A stretch of DNA of 35,435 nt, from IMG/VR virus record IMGVR_UViG_3300032073_000096, positions 1 through 35,435 of that record, one strand, 5' to 3'. A program made the position numbers and the translations under genes. The notes under the pieces are model-generated. The model was not told the origin of the DNA, ran no database searches, and saw only the letters and a program-made list of their open reading frames with translations. Positions 4,033 through 34,413 of the stretch are shown here, one piece after another. The DNA comes from a virus. Position 1 is the stretch's first letter. Each line of letters starts with the position of its first letter.

Positions 4033-5988
4033 ATGGATTCATTACCTAGTTTGTATCAAGATTTTATTCACCTGAGTCGCTACTCTCGCTGGTTACCAGA
4101 AGAGAACAGAAGAGAAACATGGGAAGAAACGGTTAAACGCTATTTCGATTTCTTTACATGGCATCTAGATGAATATCATTCATACAAGGTATCTGCTTCA
4201 GAAAGAAAAGAATTAGAAGAAGCAGTATTGAACTTGGAGGTTATGCCTTCAATGAGAGCATTGATGACTGCCGGTGAAGCACTTAAGAGAGATAATGTTG
4301 CAGGATATAATTGCTCATACTTAAGTGCGGGTAGAGTCCGTTCGTTCGATGAAATTCTATATATTCTCATGTGTGGTACTGGTGTCGGTTTCAGTGTTGA
4401 ACGTGACTTCCTTGATAAACTACCCACGATTGCTGAAGGATTCGAGGACAGTGATACTACAATCGTTGTACAAGACAGTAAGATGGGTTGGGCGAAGTCT
4501 TATAAAGAACTCACCTCGCTTCTTATTGGAGGTCAAGTTCCGAAATGGGACTTGTCAAAGATTCGACCTGCCGGCGCGAGACTCAAAACTTTCGGTGGTC
4601 GTGCTTCGGGGCCAGCACCACTGGACGATCTATTCCGATTCACAGTGGACACCTATAAAAAGGCTGTTGGAAGAAAACTCACATCAATCGAGTGTCACGA
4701 TATCATCTGTAAGATTGCTGAAGTGGTCGTTGTGGGGGGAGTACGTCGAAGTGCCCTTATCTCACTCTCTTCGCTTACCGATGAGCGGATGCGTGATGCG
4801 AAGCACGGACAGTGGTGGATTTCCGATCCGCAAAGAGCATTATCGAACAACTCGGTTTCGTACAAAACTAAACCAGAAGTAGGTACGTTCATGGAGGAAT
4901 GGATTTCTCTTTATAAGAGTAAGTCAGGTGAACGTGGTATCTTTAATAGAGAAGCAGCACAGAGTCAGATTGAACGAGCAAACGAGTTCCGGAGTTCCCT
5001 TGGTGATGGATTTGTACTCAGAGAATCAAATCATAATTTTGGTACAAACCCATGCAGCGAGATCATTCTAAGAGATAGAGAATTCTGCAACCTAACTGAA
5101 ATCGTTGTCCGTGGTGATGATACCGTAGAGTCTCTAGAGAGAAAGGTACGCCTTGCCACTATTCTTGGAACATGGCAGTCTACTCTTACCAACTTCAAAT
5201 ACCTCTCAAGTGAGTGGGAAAAGAACTGCGAAGAAGAACGACTTCTTGGTGTGTCTTTGACTGGTATCATGGATAGTTCGTTGTTAAATGGGAAGAGTAA
5301 AGGACTTGAAGAACGACTTGAACAAATGAAAAAGGTTTCAGTTGTTACTAATAAGCAAATTGCCAAGAAGTTACACATTAATGCCTCCGCAAGTATCACA
5401 TGTGTTAAGCCTAGTGGTACAGTTTCGCAGTTGGTTGATGCCGCATCTGGTATTCATGCAAGACATAATGATTATTATATTCGTACTGTTCGTGCGGACA
5501 TCAAGGATCCTCTGTGTGAGTTCATGAAGGACAAGGGATTCCCATGTGAACCCGATGTTATGAAACCGGATAACACTATGGTATTTTCTTTCCCCATGAA
5601 ATCACCAAAGAATGCCGTTTGCAGAAAAGATCTAACAGCAATCGAACAACTAGAACTTTGGTTGTCCTATCAGAAGTATTGGTGTGAACATAAACCTTCA
5701 ATCACCGTTACTGTGAAAGAAGATGAATGGTTTACAGTTGGTGCCTGGGTCTATGAGAATTTCGATGAAGTTTGTGGTGTTTCTTTCCTACCATATTCCG
5801 ATCATAGTTACAAGCAAGCACCATATCAAGATTGTACCAAGGAAGAATATCAGGTAGCATTGAAGAAGATGCCAAAGGATATAGACTGGTCTGCAATGGT
5901 TAAGTATGAGACCGAAGATAATACTTCGGGTTCTCAGACATATGCCTGTAGTGGAAATTCTTGTGAAATAGTTGACTTAACTGGTTGA
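4033..5988 (+). CDS. nrdJ: Adenosylcobalamin-dependent (class II, monomeric) ribonucleotide reductase
   Basis: Reduces ribonucleotides to deoxyribonucleotides using a B12-generated radical, so it works without oxygen and without a small subunit. The 651-aa length and sequence match the monomeric Lactobacillus RTPR-type family. Visible motifs are VAGYNCSYL (first redox cysteine), the active-site NPCSEI at 339-344, REFCNLTEI (partner cysteine), ASITCVKPSGTVSQL, and a C-terminal ACSGNSC cysteine pair that re-reduces the active site. The SD-like ACGGAG is about 6 nt before the ATG. Dependence on cobalamin means the host must make or import B12. A CobS-like protein is encoded 26 kb away, but a functional link is not shown. 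Confidence 0.94.
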   Translation: MDSLPSLYQDFIHLSRYSRWLPEENRRETWEETVKRYFDFFTWHLDEYHSYKVSASERKELEEAVLNLEVMPSMRALMTAGEALKRDNVAGYNCSYLSAGRVRSFDEILYILMCGTGVGFSVERDFLDKLPTIAEGFEDSDTTIVVQDSKMGWAKSYKELTSLLIGGQVPKWDLSKIRPAGARLKTFGGRASGPAPLDDLFRFTVDTYKKAVGRKLTSIECHDIICKIAEVVVVGGVRRSALISLSSLTDERMRDAKHGQWWISDPQRALSNNSVSYKTKPEVGTFMEEWISLYKSKSGERGIFNREAAQSQIERANEFRSSLGDGFVLRESNHNFGTNPCSEIILRDREFCNLTEIVVRGDDTVESLERKVRLATILGTWQSTLTNFKYLSSEWEKNCEEERLLGVSLTGIMDSSLLNGKSKGLEERLEQMKKVSVVTNKQIAKKLHINASASITCVKPSGTVSQLVDAASGIHARHNDYYIRTVRADIKDPLCEFMKDKGFPCEPDVMKPDNTMVFSFPMKSPKNAVCRKDLTAIEQLELWLSYQKYWCEHKPSITVTVKEDEWFTVGAWVYENFDEVCGVSFLPYSDHSYKQAPYQDCTKEEYQVALKKMPKDIDWSAMVKYETEDNTSGSQTYACSGNSCEIVDLTG

Positions 5989-13192: not shown

Positions 13193-16100
13193 TTACTTGA
13201 TCCTATTAAATTTCTCGTCTAGACTATTTATAGTCATAAAAGGTGTGTGTTTAGTGAGTTTCTTTCTTAGGGCGTCAGTACCATACTCGCCCGCACCACC
13301 TTCTTCATTTGTCTTGTTGTTTCCAATTCCTCTGTTTCTTGATGCAGAAGTTATTTGGATATTGTCGGACGAGTTATTTAAAGGGTTTCCATCTTTGTGG
13401 TGAACATCTTTACCGTCTCCAACTTTCAACTGACCTTTTCTAATTTTCTTATTTCTCAAACTGGTTCTAGAACTTCGTTTGGCTCTTTGCTCTGATGTAC
13501 GATTATATTCCTTCTGACGTTTAGCACGACGAACCGGATCCTCATCTTCAGACAGTGAGTTTAAAAATTCTAGTTCATCTCGTAAATCAGCGTAGTTGTC
13601 TTCACCAATCTCTATGCGTTCATAACCATCAGTCCATCTCAACACTTCTTTGATTACGTTACCAGTGTCACCTAATCTCGGTAGTATAGTTTCGAGGACA
13701 TGATTATAATCGATGAAGAGTTCTTCACCTTCTTCAATATCTTCTGTTGCAACCGTGTAGAAGTTACCGTCAACCTCTTCCAATCTAAGATTGGGGTGAC
13801 GACTGTGGTTGGTTAGACGACAGAAATCTGTTCTCTGGTATTGTGGAACATCTTCTGTGATGTTAAGATAATACATTCCTAACATCTCACCATTTTCGAC
13901 ATTCTCCGTGGCAAAACTACCAAGTCCATGTCGATCTGACTCTTTAAACTCATAGGAATTCTTTAGAGTTGCGATGTTGGTTTTCTTGTTGTAGTTGTAT
14001 TGACTAGGGGACTTACCATCCTTCTTTGCTGCACGATCTTTTGCACGTTCACCAGCAGACATGCTGTTTCTTTTCTTGCCTTTGTCTGTTAGTTGTTGAC
14101 TGCCTTTCTTTAGCACACCATTCTTCTGGAGAGAGGCGTTTGCGATGGCATATGCAGCGTCCTTCGACTTACCCTTTGCCATGAGTTGCTGTACTAGACG
14201 ATCAAGGATCTCTGGTTCCCTCAGTAACTGAACAGATTCCTCTACGGTTTCTGTGTCGTCTTCGCCCTCATTGTAATCGACATCCTTTTCAATTGGAATT
14301 CTCTTAGTCATACCATTGATTACGATGTCGGTGTATTCACCAGACTCTTCGACGTTGAGATCAGCAAGGTTGATAGAACTGGTGTCAATTGAATCTACTT
14401 CAATACCAAGGAACTCTTGAAGTCTGCCTGGATCTGATCCAATATACTTCGTTGCCTTATTCATGTATTCTTTAAAGTTTTCGTCACCTTCGTTCATCAT
14501 CCTATTAGCAACCCATTCAAACGCTTCTTTTGTATCTGTAAATCCCTTGGCTTTAACAATCATACCAAGTGCTGACCAATAAGAATATGAACCAGTCTTC
14601 TGTCTCTGGGAAGATTTGAATCTGGTAAGAATGTTTAGGTTTGCAGGGAGTGCAACTTTATCGATATAGTCAGGATCAATTTGGATAAGTTTAGATTTGG
14701 TTCCGTCTCTGTTCATCGATAGAACGTGTGTTGCACACGCATCAGAGTCTTTACCAAACTTCATCTCTCCTGTCATTGATTCGTGAATGATCGCACGTTT
14801 AAACACTGTGCTACTTTCCATTAGTTCTGAGAACTTTTGGGTATGTTCCTTGTGGAGATCGTCGATTTCTTTCAGTCCTTTGATATCTCCTTCTTTTTCC
14901 CCACCAGCAAGGAATTTGCTTACTTTGTTTTCGCCTGCTGATCCTGTGGGTGTTTGTGCCGTTGTTACCCACGATTCTTGCATTTCTTTTAGTAGACCCT
15001 GTACTGCTTTTCTAGTCTTTGGTTCTTTTTTCAGTTCGTCGCCGTGCTTGTCCAAGATGTTTTCTAGAGTTGCTCGTGCTTCGCCTAACTTTGCAGACAT
15101 GAGTTGTGCATCGCCACATTTTACCGATACGCGAATATTTTCCCCAGTCTTTTTATTCTTAAGCATCAAGTCTGTTTTTGGTGTGCTATCAGTCCCGCCT
15201 TTATCTGACCATGCACTCGTCAGTGGTTCGCTGGATCTACCAAAGTGAACTGCTTCATAGTCCGCAGCATCCCCACCAAGTTGCTCCTTGATAGTATCTA
15301 CAAGTCTTCTGGAAGAATCTTTTAGTGTTTCACTTTGTTTAATTTTTTGCTGATCTGTGTCTGATATTAAACCGACTTTACTGTCATGTTCATGATCATC
15401 ATTCCACACATCAACAAATCCTGCTTCCATGTCTACTGCTTTGTGATCCCAGTCAGGAAAGAGAGAACCCTTACCCTGAATAGTTTTACCATTCTTGGGT
15501 ACACGTTTTGCAGGGGTTAATTCCGGTGCAGGCATTTCTTCGGGTTGTTGCATTTGTCCCTGTTGATCCGGGGACTGTTGCGTGTTTGCGCCTTGTCTCT
15601 TATCTGCTACCTGTTGCTGCGCCTGTTGCGCCATTGATTTCTTTTGTTGTTCCCATCCGAGTAATTTCTTCGCAGTTGATGTCCACTTGAAGTCCGGATC
15701 AACCGCGAGTCTGCCTGCTTTACCTGCATTGAGTTTACCTTTAGGTTTCTCACCCGGTGCAGATCCTGCAATAACTTCTGAGTGTTGATCTGGACTATAA
15801 TCTTGTCCAAGAATAATTTTAATCTTGTCTTGATTATCTCTTACTGCTATAACTGAGTCCCACGGATTAGTTGATGCACGTTCCCCACGTTTTCTAGCAG
15901 CGTCTCTTTCCTTGGGATCCGATGTACCATTACCTCGATCCTGTTCTCGTTCTACTTTACGTCGTCTTGCTTCCTGATCGACGGAAGATACTTCGTTGAT
16001 CATACTGAGGAAGTCTACGTCCATACTCTCTACTGCCTTTGCGGGATCGTTTGTTGTCATTCTTTGTCTCACCTGTTGAAGTCGTTCGGTTTCTGCTTTC

Positions 16101-16999
16101 TTCATCTGTGGAACCAATTTCTTTGATATGCGTGCGATAGCAGCCTTTTTCTTCTGTACCTTCTTGCCAATCTTTTCTCGCTCTTGGAACGATACATCAG
16201 ACCATTTTCTATCACCAAGGATCTTTTTGCGAATGAGTTTGACTGCTTCTTTTCCTGCTTTCGCCTTGATTTGATCTGAACCCTTGCGTCGTTTTTCTTT
16301 CATCTTCCTTGCACGCATTCGCCTTTTTGCAGTCTTCTTAGCGGCACGTTGTAGTTTGCGTCTACCCTGTGTGCTTAGTTCGTTGATTGCCTCTTCTCGG
16401 AACTCGACGAACTCTTCATGATTGAACCACGACTCTGCTATAAAAGGCTTAATTCCCATTCCTTTTTGTACGGCCGCAAAGAGTCCTTTACTATCCCTTT
16501 CACTCATGTGAGTGGGAAGACCTAGGAGGAATGCTTGATAGTTTCCTTCTGCCGCGGCACCACGCATCTTTGATGCAGACATACCTTCAACGCCTTCCGC
16601 ATCAGGATCTCTATCTCCTGCGGATACTACCTCGAAGTTAGTAAACATATATTCTTTGCCAATATACTTGGGGATTTGCTTTTGGAACTCAGCAACTCGA
16701 TCACCACCGACTACCATAGTGACATCGGTGTATCCTGCATCGCTTAGTTTCTTGAGTAGTACGAATGGCGTATTCGCCTTGGCATCAACAGAGACATTGA
16801 ATCCTTTAAGCACTTTCTTCATGTACTTTTCTTTGTCTCTCGCAGACAAAGGATTCTTTTTCTTGTCGGTGCTGCTACTACCGAAGATAGCATGTTCTGC
16901 ACCGCGCCGTCTTGCTTCTTCTTTTACTTTAGTCGCCAGTAATAAATGTCCCGTGGTGGGGGGATTGAATCTGCCAAATGTAAAAACAATTTTCTTCAT
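13193..16999 (-). CDS. 1268-aa multidomain protein: nucleotidyltransferase, nuclease-like, SET and HNH-like regions
   Basis: Residues 1-185 are a nucleotidyltransferase of the NMN-adenylyl/cytidylyltransferase fold: GRFNPPTTGH (9-18) and SASKMR (141-146) are its two nucleotide-binding motifs. A long Arg/Lys-rich helical region follows. Around 600-660 TPKTDL ... RVSVKCG resembles a PD-(D/E)XK nuclease core. Around 960-1010 lies a helical module (DAAYAIANASLQ). Residues about 1016-1100 read as a SET domain (GLGSFATENVENGE, NHSRHPN, FIDYN), as in lysine methyltransferases. Around 1199-1209 VHHKDGNPLNN is HNH-like. The ATG at 16999 has GGAGG 9 nt upstream. Possibly a packaged or proteolytically processed polyprotein; that is inference. 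Confidence 0.8.
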   Translation of the reverse strand: MKKIVFTFGRFNPPTTGHLLLATKVKEEARRRGAEHAIFGSSSTDKKKNPLSARDKEKYMKKVLKGFNVSVDAKANTPFVLLKKLSDAGYTDVTMVVGGDRVAEFQKQIPKYIGKEYMFTNFEVVSAGDRDPDAEGVEGMSASKMRGAAAEGNYQAFLLGLPTHMSERDSKGLFAAVQKGMGIKPFIAESWFNHEEFVEFREEAINELSTQGRRKLQRAAKKTAKRRMRARKMKEKRRKGSDQIKAKAGKEAVKLIRKKILGDRKWSDVSFQEREKIGKKVQKKKAAIARISKKLVPQMKKAETERLQQVRQRMTTNDPAKAVESMDVDFLSMINEVSSVDQEARRRKVEREQDRGNGTSDPKERDAARKRGERASTNPWDSVIAVRDNQDKIKIILGQDYSPDQHSEVIAGSAPGEKPKGKLNAGKAGRLAVDPDFKWTSTAKKLLGWEQQKKSMAQQAQQQVADKRQGANTQQSPDQQGQMQQPEEMPAPELTPAKRVPKNGKTIQGKGSLFPDWDHKAVDMEAGFVDVWNDDHEHDSKVGLISDTDQQKIKQSETLKDSSRRLVDTIKEQLGGDAADYEAVHFGRSSEPLTSAWSDKGGTDSTPKTDLMLKNKKTGENIRVSVKCGDAQLMSAKLGEARATLENILDKHGDELKKEPKTRKAVQGLLKEMQESWVTTAQTPTGSAGENKVSKFLAGGEKEGDIKGLKEIDDLHKEHTQKFSELMESSTVFKRAIIHESMTGEMKFGKDSDACATHVLSMNRDGTKSKLIQIDPDYIDKVALPANLNILTRFKSSQRQKTGSYSYWSALGMIVKAKGFTDTKEAFEWVANRMMNEGDENFKEYMNKATKYIGSDPGRLQEFLGIEVDSIDTSSINLADLNVEESGEYTDIVINGMTKRIPIEKDVDYNEGEDDTETVEESVQLLREPEILDRLVQQLMAKGKSKDAAYAIANASLQKNGVLKKGSQQLTDKGKKRNSMSAGERAKDRAAKKDGKSPSQYNYNKKTNIATLKNSYEFKESDRHGLGSFATENVENGEMLGMYYLNITEDVPQYQRTDFCRLTNHSRHPNLRLEEVDGNFYTVATEDIEEGEELFIDYNHVLETILPRLGDTGNVIKEVLRWTDGYERIEIGEDNYADLRDELEFLNSLSEDEDPVRRAKRQKEYNRTSEQRAKRSSRTSLRNKKIRKGQLKVGDGKDVHHKDGNPLNNSSDNIQITSASRNRGIGNNKTNEEGGAGEYGTDALRKKLTKHTPFMTINSLDEKFNRIK
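13225..13232 (-). promoter_or_regulatory. T4-type late promoter
   Basis: Second perfect TATAAATA on the minus strand, 32 nt upstream of the ATG at 13192 and lying inside the 3' end of the preceding coding region. The near-identical spacing to the site at 12540 supports function. Confidence 0.65.
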
Positions 17000-17028
17000 A
17001 GCGTTAAGCCTCCGATTATTATATGTAT

Positions 17029-17063
17029 AAAAACAGGAGAGCATACATAGGTACACTCTCCTG
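17029..17063 (-). terminator. Rho-independent terminator (minus strand)
   Basis: On the minus strand CAGGAGAG and CTCTCCTG form an 8-bp stem (17034-17041 with 17056-17063, 14-nt loop) followed by TTTTT. It would end a transcript coming from the 40-aa peptide gene before the large multidomain gene. Confidence 0.75.
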
Positions 17064-17072
17064 CAATTTAAT

Positions 17073-17143
17073 CCACTGACTTTCAACAACGGTATTGTTA
17101 AAATGGTTTCTCGGACCACCTCCTTTCGGTTGAAAGTCAGTGG
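17073..17143 (-). ncRNA. Putative structured RNA element with an extended anti-16S sequence in its loop
   Basis: A 15-bp perfect inverted repeat (17073-17087 with 17129-17143) encloses a 41-nt loop. On the minus strand the loop contains AAAGGAGGTGGTCC (17113-17126), which can pair with the 3' end of 16S rRNA over about 14 nt with one G-U pair. No suitably spaced start codon follows, and a terminator lies 10 nt beyond the repeat. It could be a small RNA, a 3' UTR structure of the 40-aa gene, or a ribosome-binding decoy. Confidence 0.45.
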
Positions 17144-25263: not shown

Positions 25264-25995
25264 ATGTTATTCGTAAGATCAGTCTTTATGTTACTGCTGA
25301 TCGTCGTAACTACTAGTTGTGCATCCCGTGAAAAGTTAGACGATACTAATCGTACATCAACATTTTCTCAAGAACAAACGAAATTACATTTTGATTTTAT
25401 TGAACACAGCACCATTCCTGCTGCTGGATCATTGTACAACAAAGACGACAAGTTTGTTGGTTCGTGTGTTCTTGTAACTAAAAATATTGCACTGACCGCT
25501 GCTCACTGTATTCATTATGGTGATCTTAAGTACGTTAGGTTTGGCGAAGAAAAAATACTAATCGATATGCAATTCATCCACAAGGACTATTTCTTGTCTG
25601 GTGATGACATTGGTTTACTAGCATTTTCCACTGAATCAACACACACTCCTATGCCACTATTACAGAATGTAGAAGACCTCGGTGCGATGATTCCTCTACG
25701 CACAATCGCTCATGGTGGTGGTGATAAGAAGATAAGCAAGGATGATGTGTTTAGGTTCTATGGTATACTGAAAAATAGACCAAACGAAGTCATATTTCTC
25801 CCACTCAAAACCACTGTCTGGTTCGGTGATTCTGGTGGTGCCTTAGTCTGGGAAGATTCGGATGGAAACTATGCTCTGGTAGGAATCATCACACACTTTT
25901 CAACTGCTGATGATAAAATCTATGAGTGTGCGGCACGACGTACTGACACATTCAATCTGTGCGACGATATATGGCATCCTTGGTTTGTTGAATAG
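25264..25995 (+). CDS. Secreted trypsin-like serine protease, lipoprotein-type signal
   Basis: 243 aa. A hydrophobic leader (residues 4-16) ends in a lipobox-like TTSC (C19), so the protein is probably exported and may be lipid-anchored in the envelope. The S1 protease triad is present in order: H81 in LTAAHC, D115 in GDDIGLLAF and S190 in FGDSGGAL, with Cys pairs that could form disulfides. Family length for a minimal trypsin fold is met. No clear SD precedes the ATG; a TATACT box at 25254-25259 is close enough to suggest a leaderless transcript, though its -35 is poor. Substrate unknown; an envelope or competing-phage receptor target is conceivable. Confidence 0.85.
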   Translation: MLFVRSVFMLLLIVVTTSCASREKLDDTNRTSTFSQEQTKLHFDFIEHSTIPAAGSLYNKDDKFVGSCVLVTKNIALTAAHCIHYGDLKYVRFGEEKILIDMQFIHKDYFLSGDDIGLLAFSTESTHTPMPLLQNVEDLGAMIPLRTIAHGGGDKKISKDDVFRFYGILKNRPNEVIFLPLKTTVWFGDSGGALVWEDSDGNYALVGIITHFSTADDKIYECAARRTDTFNLCDDIWHPWFVE

Positions 25996-29617: not shown

Positions 29618-31870
29618 TCAGGCAGCGATGAGATCGATGAACCTGCTGAGGAGTACGCGGGAAGTGGAACGTCCCTTCGCCGACTTGGCGAATGCGTTCT
29701 TCAGTTTGGTGAAGGTAGCGTCTTCGGGAAGGTCTTCCATGAGATCGTTGGAGACTTTCGCGTTCGACTTGACGACGAAGTACTCGGTCCATCCGTTGCT
29801 GGGCAGAGCGGCGAAGTTTTCCTTAGAGAACGACTTCTTGAATGCATCGAATGCTTCATCGGACTCGATCTGGTATCGGAAGTTCTTGACGTTCGGGGTC
29901 ATGTAGATTCCGATGACGTTGGCATCGGTGGTGTCCTTGAGCCATTCGGCAACGGTTCCGGTGAATCGTCGTCCTTCAACCTTGAAGGTCTTTCGAGTCT
30001 TGGGGTCGAGGAGGTCGGTACGTCCCCAACCGTTACCACCGGCTTCGCCGTCGGTGAGAATGACAGTGTTCACGATCTGGACACCGTTTCGAGTCTTGAA
30101 CTCGGGAACGATGTTTCCAAGGGCGAACATGGCTTCATGGAGAGGAGTACCGGACAGGCGGAATCGAGGGCTACAACCAACATTCTCCATACCGTCATAC
30201 GTGTTCGCTTCCATCATCATCCAGAGGCAGGCGCAGGCAGTCTTGAATTCTCGCGTGTTCATGCGATTCGAGAGAAGATTGTTCAGAACGAAACTCTGGC
30301 AGTTATAGTCTTCGATTGTACCATCATTTTCGCGGAAGGTCTGGGTCTCGCCACGTTCCTTCATCAATTCGTCGTATCGATCCCAATCACCGTATCGGGT
30401 GACGTTGAAAGGCATTTCATTCGTGAACGAGTAGACCTCGAAGGGAATGTTGACTTTCTTGCAGAAGAAGACGAGGCTGAGAAGTTGTTCGACGGTATCC
30501 CGAAGGCAGTCTGCCATCGATCCGCTCCAATCGATCACCATGACGAGGCCGTGGCTCTTGCCGTCGGCGATTTCTTCGTTGCGGAGGAAGATATCTTCGC
30601 TCCAACGGTAATCGATCATGCGATTGGTGTCGAGAATACCAGTCTTCGAGGTCGAAGTACGCTTGTCCTGGTCGGCAGCCATCTTCATTTCAAACTGCTT
30701 CACCAGCATATTGGTAGTCTTCCGACTATCGTTCTCGAAGGCACGGACGGCGGCGGCGCATTCCGCGAACTTTTCGCACTGAAGGTCGTTTCCGGTCATG
30801 AAGTCTCGCATGGCAGTGGCGACTTCGGTGTAGTCGATGGCAACCTTGGACATGTCGAGGTCGGGAACTCGCTGGTAGTTGACGCCGCGGCAGTACTCGT
30901 CACGCATCGCGTTGATAGCGTTCTCCATCGCTTGTGACGTTTCAGGCATGGGAGCATCCATGACGGTCGTGTTCGCGCCCTGCACGGTCGAAGGGGTCGA
31001 ACCCGTTTCCTCGCCTTCGGCGGATTCGCCGGTGTCGGTGTCATCGTCGGCGGATTCGCCACTGTCTTCACCATCGGACGCGGAACCGGATTCGCCGTCT
31101 TCGCCTTCGCCGTCTTCAGCATCGGAATCGCCACCTTCGCCGTTGCCGGTGCCTTCGTCTTCGGATTCAGCACCACCGGCACCGGGCATACCCTGGCCGG
31201 TAGGTCCGTCTTCGTCGCCCTGTTCGCGGTCTTCGGGCGTACCATTGCCGGTGTCGTCGTTCTGAGGCAGGGCAGCATCGGTCCACAGTTCCGTGGCGAT
31301 ATCGACGATCTCGGTCCATTCGTCAGCATTCTCGATACGGTCGATCCAGACACGTTCGGCGGCAGTGAACGGGACATTGGCGAGATGTCCAATCTTGAAA
31401 TGAATGTTCAGGCGATCGATGAGCATGAGATCGTTCAGGTCCTTGCCCGCGATCTGGAAAATGTCATCTTCGGCGAATTGACGGTAGGCATTCACGAAGT
31501 CGCGGCGGAGGCCGGGGAACTTCGCCTTGATCATTCGTTCGATACGGGCGTCTTCGACCACATTCAGGAAGTGACGGCCACTGCCGCTGCGGTCTTCACC
31601 ACCGGCAACGCGGTCAGAGGCATCTGCCCATTCGCTGCCTTGTGGAGTATGGAGGGCGTGGCTGACCTCGTGACCGATGAGCATATCGTACATCGAATCG
31701 GTCATATCCTGCCACACGGGAAGGCCGAGAACGCGCCGCTTGGTATCGAAATACGCGGTTTCGGCGGTCGCGTCATGAATGACAGTGATATTCTCCGTGG
31801 CCATAGCACGGGCGAGGATATCGCGGGATGTTCGGGACTTGTTCGGGACGGTAGTGGTAGTGGTACTCAT
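29618..31870 (-). CDS. CobT-like VWA protein with N-terminal HExxH metallopeptidase-like domain
   Basis: 750 aa. The N-terminal domain carries HEVSH at 67-71, a zinc-metallopeptidase motif, with NVVEDARIE at 103-111 supplying a possible third ligand. A long Asp/Glu/Gly/Ser-rich linker (about 206-300) follows. The C-terminal part is a von Willebrand A domain with the MIDAS motif DWSGS at 447-451 and a later T-D-G-E. VWA proteins of this kind work with MoxR/CobS-type AAA+ ATPases, and exactly such a gene diverges from this one. The ATG sits where transcription should start, so the mRNA may be leaderless. Peptidase activity is plausible but unproven; the HExxH unit may be structural. Confidence 0.88.
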   Translation of the reverse strand: MSTTTTTVPNKSRTSRDILARAMATENITVIHDATAETAYFDTKRRVLGLPVWQDMTDSMYDMLIGHEVSHALHTPQGSEWADASDRVAGGEDRSGSGRHFLNVVEDARIERMIKAKFPGLRRDFVNAYRQFAEDDIFQIAGKDLNDLMLIDRLNIHFKIGHLANVPFTAAERVWIDRIENADEWTEIVDIATELWTDAALPQNDDTGNGTPEDREQGDEDGPTGQGMPGAGGAESEDEGTGNGEGGDSDAEDGEGEDGESGSASDGEDSGESADDDTDTGESAEGEETGSTPSTVQGANTTVMDAPMPETSQAMENAINAMRDEYCRGVNYQRVPDLDMSKVAIDYTEVATAMRDFMTGNDLQCEKFAECAAAVRAFENDSRKTTNMLVKQFEMKMAADQDKRTSTSKTGILDTNRMIDYRWSEDIFLRNEEIADGKSHGLVMVIDWSGSMADCLRDTVEQLLSLVFFCKKVNIPFEVYSFTNEMPFNVTRYGDWDRYDELMKERGETQTFRENDGTIEDYNCQSFVLNNLLSNRMNTREFKTACACLWMMMEANTYDGMENVGCSPRFRLSGTPLHEAMFALGNIVPEFKTRNGVQIVNTVILTDGEAGGNGWGRTDLLDPKTRKTFKVEGRRFTGTVAEWLKDTTDANVIGIYMTPNVKNFRYQIESDEAFDAFKKSFSKENFAALPSNGWTEYFVVKSNAKVSNDLMEDLPEDATFTKLKNAFAKSAKGRSTSRVLLSRFIDLIAA

Positions 31871-31876
31871 GCGTAT

Positions 31877-31904
31877 ATTGTACCATACTGGGGCCCCGTG
31901 TCAA
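31877..31904 (-). promoter_or_regulatory. Sigma70-type promoter of the VWA gene (leaderless)
   Basis: Minus-strand TTGACA (31899-31904), 16-nt spacer, TACAAT (31877-31882). The A of the ATG at 31870 is 7 nt beyond the -10 box and no ribosome site exists between them. Confidence 0.8.
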
Positions 31905-31976
31905 CCTATAGGACCGAGAAAATGGGGAGAATATCAAGAAATATCACATATCGGACGCTATCAACGTCGCCTGCCG

Positions 31977-32108
31977 CTAAGTCCAGTAATACCAAGGACT
32001 TAGAAAAAGTTTGGGGGTGGTCGTAAACTCCTGTTATTACGGGACTTAGGCACCAAGAAATCTGCCCTAAAATGCCCGAAAATGGGTGCTAGGGGTTGCA
32101 ATCTGCCC
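31977..32108 (+). promoter_or_regulatory. Repeats in the divergent promoter region, possible operators
   Basis: CTAAGTCC (31977-31984) and GGACTTAG (31996-32003) form an 8-bp inverted repeat, and GGACTTAG recurs at 32042-32049. AATCTGCCC occurs at 32059-32067 and again at 32100-32108, overlapping the -35 edge of the AAA+ gene promoter. These are candidate binding sites for a regulator. The remainder of the 309-bp gap (31871-32179) shows no gene. Confidence 0.45.
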
Positions 32109-32123
32109 CTGGTCGTGTATAAT
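32096..32123 (+). promoter_or_regulatory. Sigma70-type promoter of the AAA+ ATPase gene
   Basis: TTGCAA (32096-32101), 16-nt spacer, perfect TATAAT (32118-32123). Start near 32130. A small stem (CGGGA 32132-32136 with TCCCG 32143-32147) lies at the 5' end of the leader. Confidence 0.85.
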
Positions 32124-32179
32124 TAGAGCATCGGGAACGAGATCCCGGCAATTTAGACCTTTTCGGAGTACCATCCAAT

Positions 32180-33655
32180 ATGAACAATACCCTCTCAACT
32201 CGTCAGAACGATTTCGTCCGTGCCCTCTGCGCCGCCTTCGGTGATGCCACCGAATACACTCGCGCCGAGTTGATGGACGTATGCGAATCGTCCGGTATCT
32301 ACTCCTGCCCTCCGTCATGGATCACGCAGGATTCGACCCGGAAGATCTCGCGTGGCGTGTACTCCGTTCCCGAAGTCGCCGAAGTCGGTGCTACCAAGTC
32401 CGCGGCCCGTGCCGCTAGGACCGACTTCGATCGTGCCATGCAGACTCCCGACCCGGAGTTCTACGTCATGAACGATGCCGATGGCAACGAATTCAAGTGT
32501 GACGCTAACGGCAAGCCCCTTGCCGATGCTCCTGCTCCTGCCCCTGCGGTCTCGACCGTTGCCAATCATGCCGTCATGGGCATGACTGGTGGTGAGCGTT
32601 CGACCCTCGTTCCTTCGCGGATCTCGACCTACGTGCCTTGGGGACATTTCAAGTCTGTCGAGATGATCGTCAAGGCCGGAATCTTCTATCCCACGTTCAT
32701 CACGGGACTTTCCGGTAACGGCAAGACCACGATGATCGAACAAGTCTGTGCCAAGATGAAGCGAGAATGCTATCGTATCAACATCACTCGCCAGACCGAC
32801 GAGGATGACCTGCTCGGTGGTTTCCGCCTCATCAACGGCGAGACCGTGTGGCAGGATGGACCAGTCGTGCAAGCGATGAAGTCCGGTGCCGTGCTTCTGC
32901 TGGACGAGATCGACCTCGCCAGCCATAACATCATGTGCCTTCAGCCTGTGTTGGAAGGTAAGGGCGTGTTTCTCAAGAAGACTGGCCAGTGGGTCACTCC
33001 TGCCGCCGGTTTCACCGTGTTCGCCACTGCGAACACCAAGGGCAAGGGCTCCGATGACGGAAAGTTCATCGGGACCAACGTCCTGAATGAAGCATTCCTC
33101 GACCGCTTCCCGATCACTATGGAACAGGCCTATGCGCCTCGTTCGACCGAGAAGAAGATTCTCGCCAAGGCGATGTCTGCCCAAGGTATCGACGATGCCG
33201 ACTTCGCCGAGAATCTGGTGAAGTGGTCGGAGATCATCCGCAAGTCGTATTTCGAGGGTGCCGTGGACGAGATCATCTCGACCCGCCGCCTGGTGGACAT
33301 CACCAAGGCCCTTGCCATCTTCGGTGATAAGGTACAGGCCATCGACTTCGCCCTCTCGCGTTTCGATGACGATACGAAAACCGCCTTCCGCGACCTGTAC
33401 GCCAAGGTGGATGCCGAAGTCGGTGACCACGACGATGCCGCCGAGGCCGAGACTGCTGCCGCAGGACTTGAAACTGCCGACCGCGTGAATCTCGCGTGTT
33501 CATACGACCAGAAGGATCTCGCCAAGAGCATGGGTGCCAAGTGGGATTCTCCCGCCAAGGTATGGTACGTCTCTGGCGACCTCTACCGTCAGAACCCTGA
33601 CCAGTGGGCGCAGTTCAACCCTGCCCCCGTCACTGCTCCTGCCTGCCCCTTCTGA
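32180..33655 (+). CDS. CobS/MoxR-type AAA+ ATPase
   Basis: 491 aa. An N-terminal domain (about 1-70; STRQNDFVRAL ... PSWITQDSTRKISRGVYSVPE) resembles a winged-helix binding module. A linker rich in Ala/Pro follows. The AAA+ core has Walker A TGLSGNGKTT (175-184), Walker B LLLDEID (about 237-243), an ATANTKG sensor-1 stretch and NEAFLDRF for the arginine finger region. A C-terminal motif (DQKDLAKSMGAKWDSPAKVWYV) fits the DUF5710 fold. CobS in bacteria inserts cobalt in B12 synthesis with CobT, but phage copies more often act with a VWA partner, as here. GGAG is 11 nt before the ATG. Confidence 0.88.
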   Translation: MNNTLSTRQNDFVRALCAAFGDATEYTRAELMDVCESSGIYSCPPSWITQDSTRKISRGVYSVPEVAEVGATKSAARAARTDFDRAMQTPDPEFYVMNDADGNEFKCDANGKPLADAPAPAPAVSTVANHAVMGMTGGERSTLVPSRISTYVPWGHFKSVEMIVKAGIFYPTFITGLSGNGKTTMIEQVCAKMKRECYRINITRQTDEDDLLGGFRLINGETVWQDGPVVQAMKSGAVLLLDEIDLASHNIMCLQPVLEGKGVFLKKTGQWVTPAAGFTVFATANTKGKGSDDGKFIGTNVLNEAFLDRFPITMEQAYAPRSTEKKILAKAMSAQGIDDADFAENLVKWSEIIRKSYFEGAVDEIISTRRLVDITKALAIFGDKVQAIDFALSRFDDDTKTAFRDLYAKVDAEVGDHDDAAEAETAAAGLETADRVNLACSYDQKDLAKSMGAKWDSPAKVWYVSGDLYRQNPDQWAQFNPAPVTAPACPF

Positions 33656-33845: not shown

Positions 33846-34090
33846 CCGACACGGACTGCACCATCTCGCACTCGCTGGACATACTGGACCGGACTATCGA
33901 CGCAATCGATGACCTCTACAGACTCAATGCCTCCGACGAGATCCCCACTGCCGCACTTGGTGGCATCACCCTCCTCCTCGCAATCACTGACCAATATGGC
34001 CCCGAATACTTTACAGATGAAGAAGTGAATTTCATCACCGAGGCCGACGAATACCTTTCTGAAACTATCAAGGAGTTTTACCCGCAATGA
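33842..34090 (+). CDS. Small acidic helical protein (82 aa)
   Basis: Not recognised. MTDTDCTISHSLDILDRTID opens a series of Asp/Glu/Leu-rich helices, with ITLLLAITDQYGPEYF in the middle and a DEYLSETIKEF tail. It is overlapped by ATGA junctions on both sides, so it is the middle gene of a short operon. The start at 33842 is preferred over a GTG 12 nt upstream because of that overlap. A role as a small partner or inhibitor of the ATPase-VWA pair is only a guess from position. Confidence 0.65.
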   Translation: MTDTDCTISHSLDILDRTIDAIDDLYRLNASDEIPTAALGGITLLLAITDQYGPEYFTDEEVNFITEADEYLSETIKEFYPQ

Positions 34091-34413
34091 ATTATTCATA
34101 CGACAACCTGACCAACCGACAGAAGACCTACATCGATGCCATTCGTGAGCATGGACCAGACATGGGTGTAGACATTACCAAGGAAGAGTTTAGTCGTGCT
34201 GAACTCCGCCCTGTTTCCCTCAAGATGAAGGGCAAGGTGTGGATCCCTAACTGGATCACACACGACCAGTCGCGTCGTGTGTCGCGTGGAGTGTTCCGCA
34301 TTCCCGAGGTGACCACTACGGTGGCAGATGAGGTACAGGTCCCCCCTGCTACCACTGATGCCCACGCCGTCACCGCCTCTGCCCCTGCGGCAGAGGTCGC
34401 CCTTTCCTCTTGA
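34087..34413 (+). CDS. Stand-alone copy of the ATPase N-terminal domain (108 aa)
   Basis: The core NLTNRQKTYIDAIREHG ... VWIPNWITHDQSRRVSRGVFRIPEV aligns with residues about 4-65 of the AAA+ protein encoded 1.5 kb upstream (TLSTRQNDFV ... PSWITQDSTRKISRGVYSVPEV). The shared WIT(H/Q)D...R(R/K)(V/I)SRGV block looks like a small DNA- or protein-binding domain. The C-terminus is an Ala/Pro/Thr-rich tail like the ATPase linker. It could bind the same target without the ATPase engine. Its ATG overlaps the stop of the 82-aa gene. Confidence 0.7.
   Translation: MNYSYDNLTNRQKTYIDAIREHGPDMGVDITKEEFSRAELRPVSLKMKGKVWIPNWITHDQSRRVSRGVFRIPEVTTTVADEVQVPPATTDAHAVTASAPAAEVALSS

Follow-up and report, generated by a model that had tools for sequence, protein, structure and literature searches.

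Phage 'cobST' genes are better read as a MoxR-VWA-metallopeptidase machine than as a cobaltochelatase

Introduction

Here we explore a pair of genes in a 35,435-base virus record from IMG/VR (IMGVR_UViG_3300032073_000096, the whole of which is hereafter called the window) that encode a MoxR/CobS/NorQ-type AAA+ ATPase and a protein joining a VWA domain to a metallopeptidase-like N-terminal domain. Databases mostly label such pairs as vitamin B12 genes and the evidence collected here runs against that label: judged by their sequences, phage 'cobST' genes are better read as encoding a MoxR-VWA-metallopeptidase machine than a cobaltochelatase. We give an even chance to the pair being an ATP-driven remodelling or proteolysis machine that acts inside the infected cell and outside the virion, probably where phage DNA is replicated or recombined or at the late-transcription switch.

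In marine T4-like cyanophages cobS counts among the core genes, generally with a B12 role ascribed to it, and it serves as a community marker (PMC3037559, PMC9983427). The cyanophage pair was taken as cobST in a study on archaeal tailed viruses, which considered cobT 'mistakenly annotated as a peptidase' (PMC8651126). The MoxR-vWA pair with an N-terminal metallopeptidase has already been described in jumbo phages by Iyer and collaborators in 2021, who suggested a function in virion assembly (PMC7824862). The present analysis adds the family-wide conservation of the zinc motif, a link to CobT by way of a bridging protein, the replication genes around the pair and the tail of the ATPase. If the pair is indeed a metallopeptidase machine driven by ATP, a widespread claim on how viruses influence vitamin B12 would no longer have a foundation, and a core phage function that has lacked an explanation would open to testing.

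Results

The VWA protein has 750 aa (29618-31870, minus strand) and matches phrog_459 'peptidase' over residues 16-613 in a PHROGs profile search (1.8e-179). Its N-terminal domain contains HEVSH at residues 67-71 (31658-31672, minus), on a predicted helix spanning residues 58-74, and NVVEDARIE at residues 103-111 (31538-31564, minus), on a predicted helix spanning 97-117, as determined by DSSP of an AlphaFold2 model with a predicted local distance difference test (pLDDT) score of 76.9. Homologs were gathered from IMG/VR, genomes and phage records, and the alignments for structure prediction were built from the IMG/VR and genome loci. Among 166 homologs, counted where the site is covered, H67 is found in 158 of 159, E68 in 159 of 159 and H71 in 158 of 158, whereas N103, E106, D107 and R109 are each present in all 159. 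A lack of conservation of the HExxH ligands, which had been named as fatal to an earlier, sequence-only reading of this DNA, hence did not occur. By sequence the protein has the gluzincin-type motif set, HExxH and a downstream conserved Glu. E106 of the NxxED motif is the probable third zinc ligand, since the spacing between HExxH and this Glu (20-42 residues in the homologs, most commonly 23) would fit a gluzincin. DUF2201_N, a putative metallopeptidase domain, was matched by one of 62 homologs (0.0022).

Motif and modelled fold identify the C-terminal half as a VWA domain with a metal ion-dependent adhesion site (MIDAS). Its DxSxS residues D447, S449 and S451 (DWSGSM at 447-452; 30518-30532, minus) are each present in 165 of 165 homologs, with T575 and D607 as remaining MIDAS residues. 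The fold search gave the MIDAS domain of Rea1/Midasin as top match (Z 16.3), the VWA domain of NorD in NorQD complexes also scoring among the best (Z 16.0), and VWA-domain matches fill the results of Foldseek and VIA searches with the whole protein. The model is confident for the N-terminal domain (approximately residues 30-200) and the VWA half, which are separated by an acidic linker with predicted disorder (residues 205-302, pLDDT < 50; 30965-31258, minus). Two further conserved regions are a segment preceding the MIDAS strand (residues 396-441, which include KTGILDTNRMIDYRWSEDIFLR; 30548-30685, minus) and the hydrophobic C-terminus (residues 741-750; 29621-29650, minus). In NorQD a finger of the VWA domain enters the pore of the ring and the VWA C-terminus touches the ATPase (PMC13036017), and by analogy the two regions are a candidate pore-inserted finger and a candidate ATPase contact.

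The partner ATPase has 491 aa (32180-33655, plus strand) and matches phrog_249 'porphyrin biosynthesis' over residues 130-421 (5.4e-113), as well as Pfam AAA_5 (2.8e-21), CbbQ_C (5.9e-5) and, C-terminally, DUF5710 (4.9e-12; residues 435-477, 33482-33610, plus). Sequence alignment places Walker A, GLSGNGKT, at residues 176-183 (32705-32728, plus) and Walker B, LLLDE, at 239-243 (32894-32908, plus), with the nearly invariant helix-2-insert region at 206-229 (TDEDDLLGGFRLINGETVWQDGPV; 32795-32866, plus) between them. A profile search of the PDB found chains of Midasin, CobS and NorQ, CobS structures with an E-value of 8e-32, and the structural model (pLDDT 86.8) is most similar to NorQ and CbbQ. 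Walker motifs and modelled fold therefore make this a MoxR/CbbQ/NorQ/CobS-type AAA+ ATPase. The bpMoxR model of the MoxR-vWA ternary conflict systems (PMC7159879) scored 18.2 bits, below its cut-off of 27. The first 65 residues (32180-32374, plus) are predicted to form a winged-helix-like domain, as judged by the order of secondary structure elements and a pLDDT of about 96. The chain ends in Cys-Pro-Phe (33644-33652, plus).

The sequence-only reading was thus right about both open reading frames (ORFs), the HEVSH and the D447 MIDAS, and its view of a MoxR/CobS-type ATPase paired with a metallopeptidase-like VWA protein is borne out by the invariant ligand residues and the NorQ/NorD fold matches. 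It had also proposed a survey of the pair in other phages. The pair proves to be widespread: the phrog_459 and phrog_249 pair is found in hundreds of cyanophages and also in pelagiphages, usually as neighbouring genes, and is near-core in T4-like cyanophages. Both genes co-occur in 162 loci, at most 1 kb apart in 150 of these, and two more records hold both genes apart. The window pair belongs to these families in that the profiles match the greater part of each protein and the genes are neighbours, 309 bp apart. It resembles the cyanophage and pelagiphage pairs in full-length homology, adjacency and all motifs, but its peptidase protein is just 28-41% identical to these relatives, its ATPase has DUF5710 and a longer linker, and its genes are divergent where theirs are co-directional.

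The N-terminal domain appears to be shared with the cobaltochelatase subunit CobT. In a profile comparison with cellular CobT, the pre-VWA helix and VWA domain of the phage proteins align (E 1.1e-5), and a direct local hhalign of the phage N-domain with CobT N-domains gave a weak match (P 0.016) in the expected register. The two are bridged by a protein (locus L207, 6088-8283, plus) from a Pseudomonadota genome region that resembles an integrative element: it scores above the cut-off of the CobT model PF06213, it can be aligned to the N-domain of the phage proteins (E 7.6e-6) and it has HExxH and NxxED intact. None of ten cellular CobT sequences has the HExxH. Since the L207 protein connects both groups, the peptidase-type and CobT N-domains look like a single sequence family in which the site is degenerate in the chelatase. 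The intact zinc motif of the phage proteins speaks against the view that their peptidase label is a mistake (PMC8651126). Neighbours of the L207 gene encode a DUF3150 protein, a Toprim primase and a TraI_2 helicase.

The surroundings of the pair are rich in replication genes. Kyanoviridae show the order gp46-peptidase-CobS-gp45, which recurs in a Nonlabens assembly on a T4-like contig, and in S-CREM2 genes for DNA polymerase, recombinase and primase lie upstream of the pair. Elsewhere the neighbours are DNA ligase and DnaE (Pseudomonas phage nickie), DnaE (RHEph10), DNA polymerase (SSU5) and primase (ICP2); CRP-810 is an exception. The S-CREM2 virion proteome comprises 52 proteins, and neither pair protein is among those of this one virion (PMC10665884).

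ATPases of this family have acidic tails with a terminal PF or F, such as ADEDIPF and PDDEIPF, far more frequently than other ORFs do: PF ends 39 of 169 ATPase homologs versus 13 of 3635 other ORFs, although a p-value for this excess overstates it because the homologs are related by descent. In form they resemble the C-terminal tip of bacterial single-stranded DNA-binding protein (SSB).

Discussion

A physical complex of ATPase and VWA protein is expected from the models, since their fold matches are the known partners NorQ and NorD, and a complex of NorQD type is likely by analogy because segment 396-441 and the VWA C-terminus are conserved. The ATPase would form a hexameric ring of CobS/NorQ/CbbQ type, on which the VWA domain of the partner would dock by means of its C-terminus and a finger-like insert in the pore, as in NorQ-NorD. 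The MIDAS would then hold a target protein, which ATP hydrolysis would twist or pull, upon which the gluzincin-like N-domain, suspended on its acidic flexible linker, could cut an exposed segment. Zinc binding, proteolysis, its proposed substrate specificity and the docking geometry are presumed from the motifs and the NorQD analogy. NorQ, which serves iron insertion into cNOR, is the best structural match of the window ATPase, and NorD belongs to the top matches for the VWA domain. NorD is described with an N-terminal domain and linker of its own and its description mentions no HExxH domain, whereas the window protein has HExxH. Rea1, the top structural match of the VWA domain, packs its six AAA modules into one giant chain and is not known to contain a peptidase.

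We place the action of such a machine in the infected cell and not in the virion, probably on proteins of DNA replication, recombination or the late-transcription switch, because of the replication neighbours, the absence from the S-CREM2 virion and the SSB-like tails. Of all these steps, a target in replication is the most speculative one. More tentatively, phage 'cobST' products may be replication-associated AAA+ machines for proteolysis or remodelling, in which an SSB-like acidic PF tail of the ATPase joins or competes at phage or host replication sites, with cellular CobT as a degenerate member of this metallopeptidase-VWA family. Several observations weigh against these interpretations. 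Phage replication genes cluster anyway, so the neighbourhood hints only weakly at a target. The tail of the window ATPase, TAPACPF, is not acidic, a terminal PF is found in just about a quarter of ATPase homologs, and the acidic PF ending was not found on the ATPases of the unrelated phages compared. Finally, HExxH is gone from the VWA partner in nickie and the ICP2 homolog keeps HExxH but loses the Glu of NxxED, which indicates that peptidase activity is dispensable in some of these pairs. Both motifs are present in the SSU5 homolog and in the CobT-named proteins of CRP-810 and RHEph10. The nickie protein (locus L214, 1759-3843), which has SEISK at the position of HExxH, is a naturally degenerate VWA partner.

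HExxH and the Glu might be retained to sense metal or to support the structure, which would make the pair a remodelling chaperone only; in favour of this, both cellular CobT and nickie keep the domain without HExxH. Invariance of all motif residues, including the catalytic E68, in approximately 159 sequences renders this improbable. We likewise hold it unlikely that the pair is a virion assembly chaperone and maturation protease, as Iyer and collaborators proposed for the group 2.2 jumbo phages (ASV44729.1 / ASV44728.2; PMC7824862). By the description in that paper the domain architecture is the same as in the window, an archaeal virus cited there requires a MoxR-vWA pair to assemble its tail, and a maturation protease could act without being packaged. 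Against this, most contexts show replication instead of structural neighbours, the S-CREM2 virion lacks both proteins, and the pair also occurs in very different phages such as ICP2 (Zobellviridae) and SSU5.

According to most annotations, and as argued in PMC8651126, the pair would be auxiliary metabolic: phage CobS and CobT would join host CobN in a cobaltochelatase and raise B12 output. The match of the ATPase profile to CobS structures and the alignment of the VWA half with CobT are in its favour, as is a ribonucleotide reductase in the window (4033-5988, plus), the best model of which is the adenosylcobalamin-dependent TIGR02505 (1.5e-92, below the cut-off). Similar reductases are encoded in the records of loci L007, L009, L016 and L172. 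However, a class I reductase small subunit is present in four cyanophage or pelagiphage genomes and six other records that carry the pair, so the pair does not track the B12-dependent reductase. A search for CobN found none in 20 viral records, several of which are fragments, and none in the Nonlabens assembly (3.7 Mb) whose T4-like contig bears the pair; the same search did find it in one cyanobacterial genome. The window VWA protein gave no match to PF06213 (CobT), and the ATPase reaches 82.8 bits with TIGR01650 (CobS), below the cut-off of 558.55. Cobaltochelatase membership was rejected since the pair falls short of the CobS and CobT cut-offs and the partner subunit CobN was not found in the records searched. 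Thus the cobaltochelatase shares with the window pair a CobS-like ATPase, a CobT-like VWA half and, through the L207 bridge, a remote N-domain homology, but its CobT is without the HExxH that is invariant in the phage family. A chelatase function that boosts B12 output in this way is unlikely.

Destruction of a host protein by the peptidase, for instance of a defence or transcription factor, would suit selective ATP-driven proteolysis but is very improbable for a pair that is near-core across hosts, unlike the patchy counter-defence genes, and that has no match in the PADLOC defence library. A defence module was itself rejected, as PADLOC matched neither protein; a defence role has no support, and neither has the self-contained system imagined from the sequence, if meant as a defence module, given this result, the near-core status in cyanophages and a divergent layout that is a minority arrangement.

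Other features of the window

The gp41-like helicase of the window is nearest to those of Methylophilales phage Melnitz and T4-like cyanophages, and from these affinities the window appears to be a piece of a T4-like marine phage genome. The divergent layout is real, and it is unusual in this family: of the 162 loci where both genes occur, the peptidase gene precedes the ATPase gene on the same strand in 149 and the two diverge in nine. The back-to-back promoters that had been proposed for it fare less well than the orientation: the 309-bp intergenic region (31871-32179) contains two weak sigma70-like matches, one per strand (31904-31877, minus; 32096-32123, plus), versus 0.8 +/- 0.8 expected, and the minus-strand match stops just 7 bp upstream of the annotated ATG. 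The T4 late promoter TATAAATA has two matches in the whole window, which is chance level, and none near the pair.

Downstream of the ATPase gene a 108-aa protein (34087-34413, plus) is a second copy of the winged-helix-like N-domain, with 38% identity over 61 residues; a search of named phages gave no match to it. Loci L007, L008, L009, L012, L015 and L016 also have similar small copies close to the ATPase, and they are perhaps adaptors. A protein with a trypsin-like serine protease domain (25264-25995, plus; Pfam 6.5e-9) is encoded 4 kb from the pair. Lastly, a 1308-aa ORF (13193-17119, minus) resembles a cytidyltransferase at its N-terminus (phrog_3041, 1.5e-55) and, further along, has several small matches to unknown domains.

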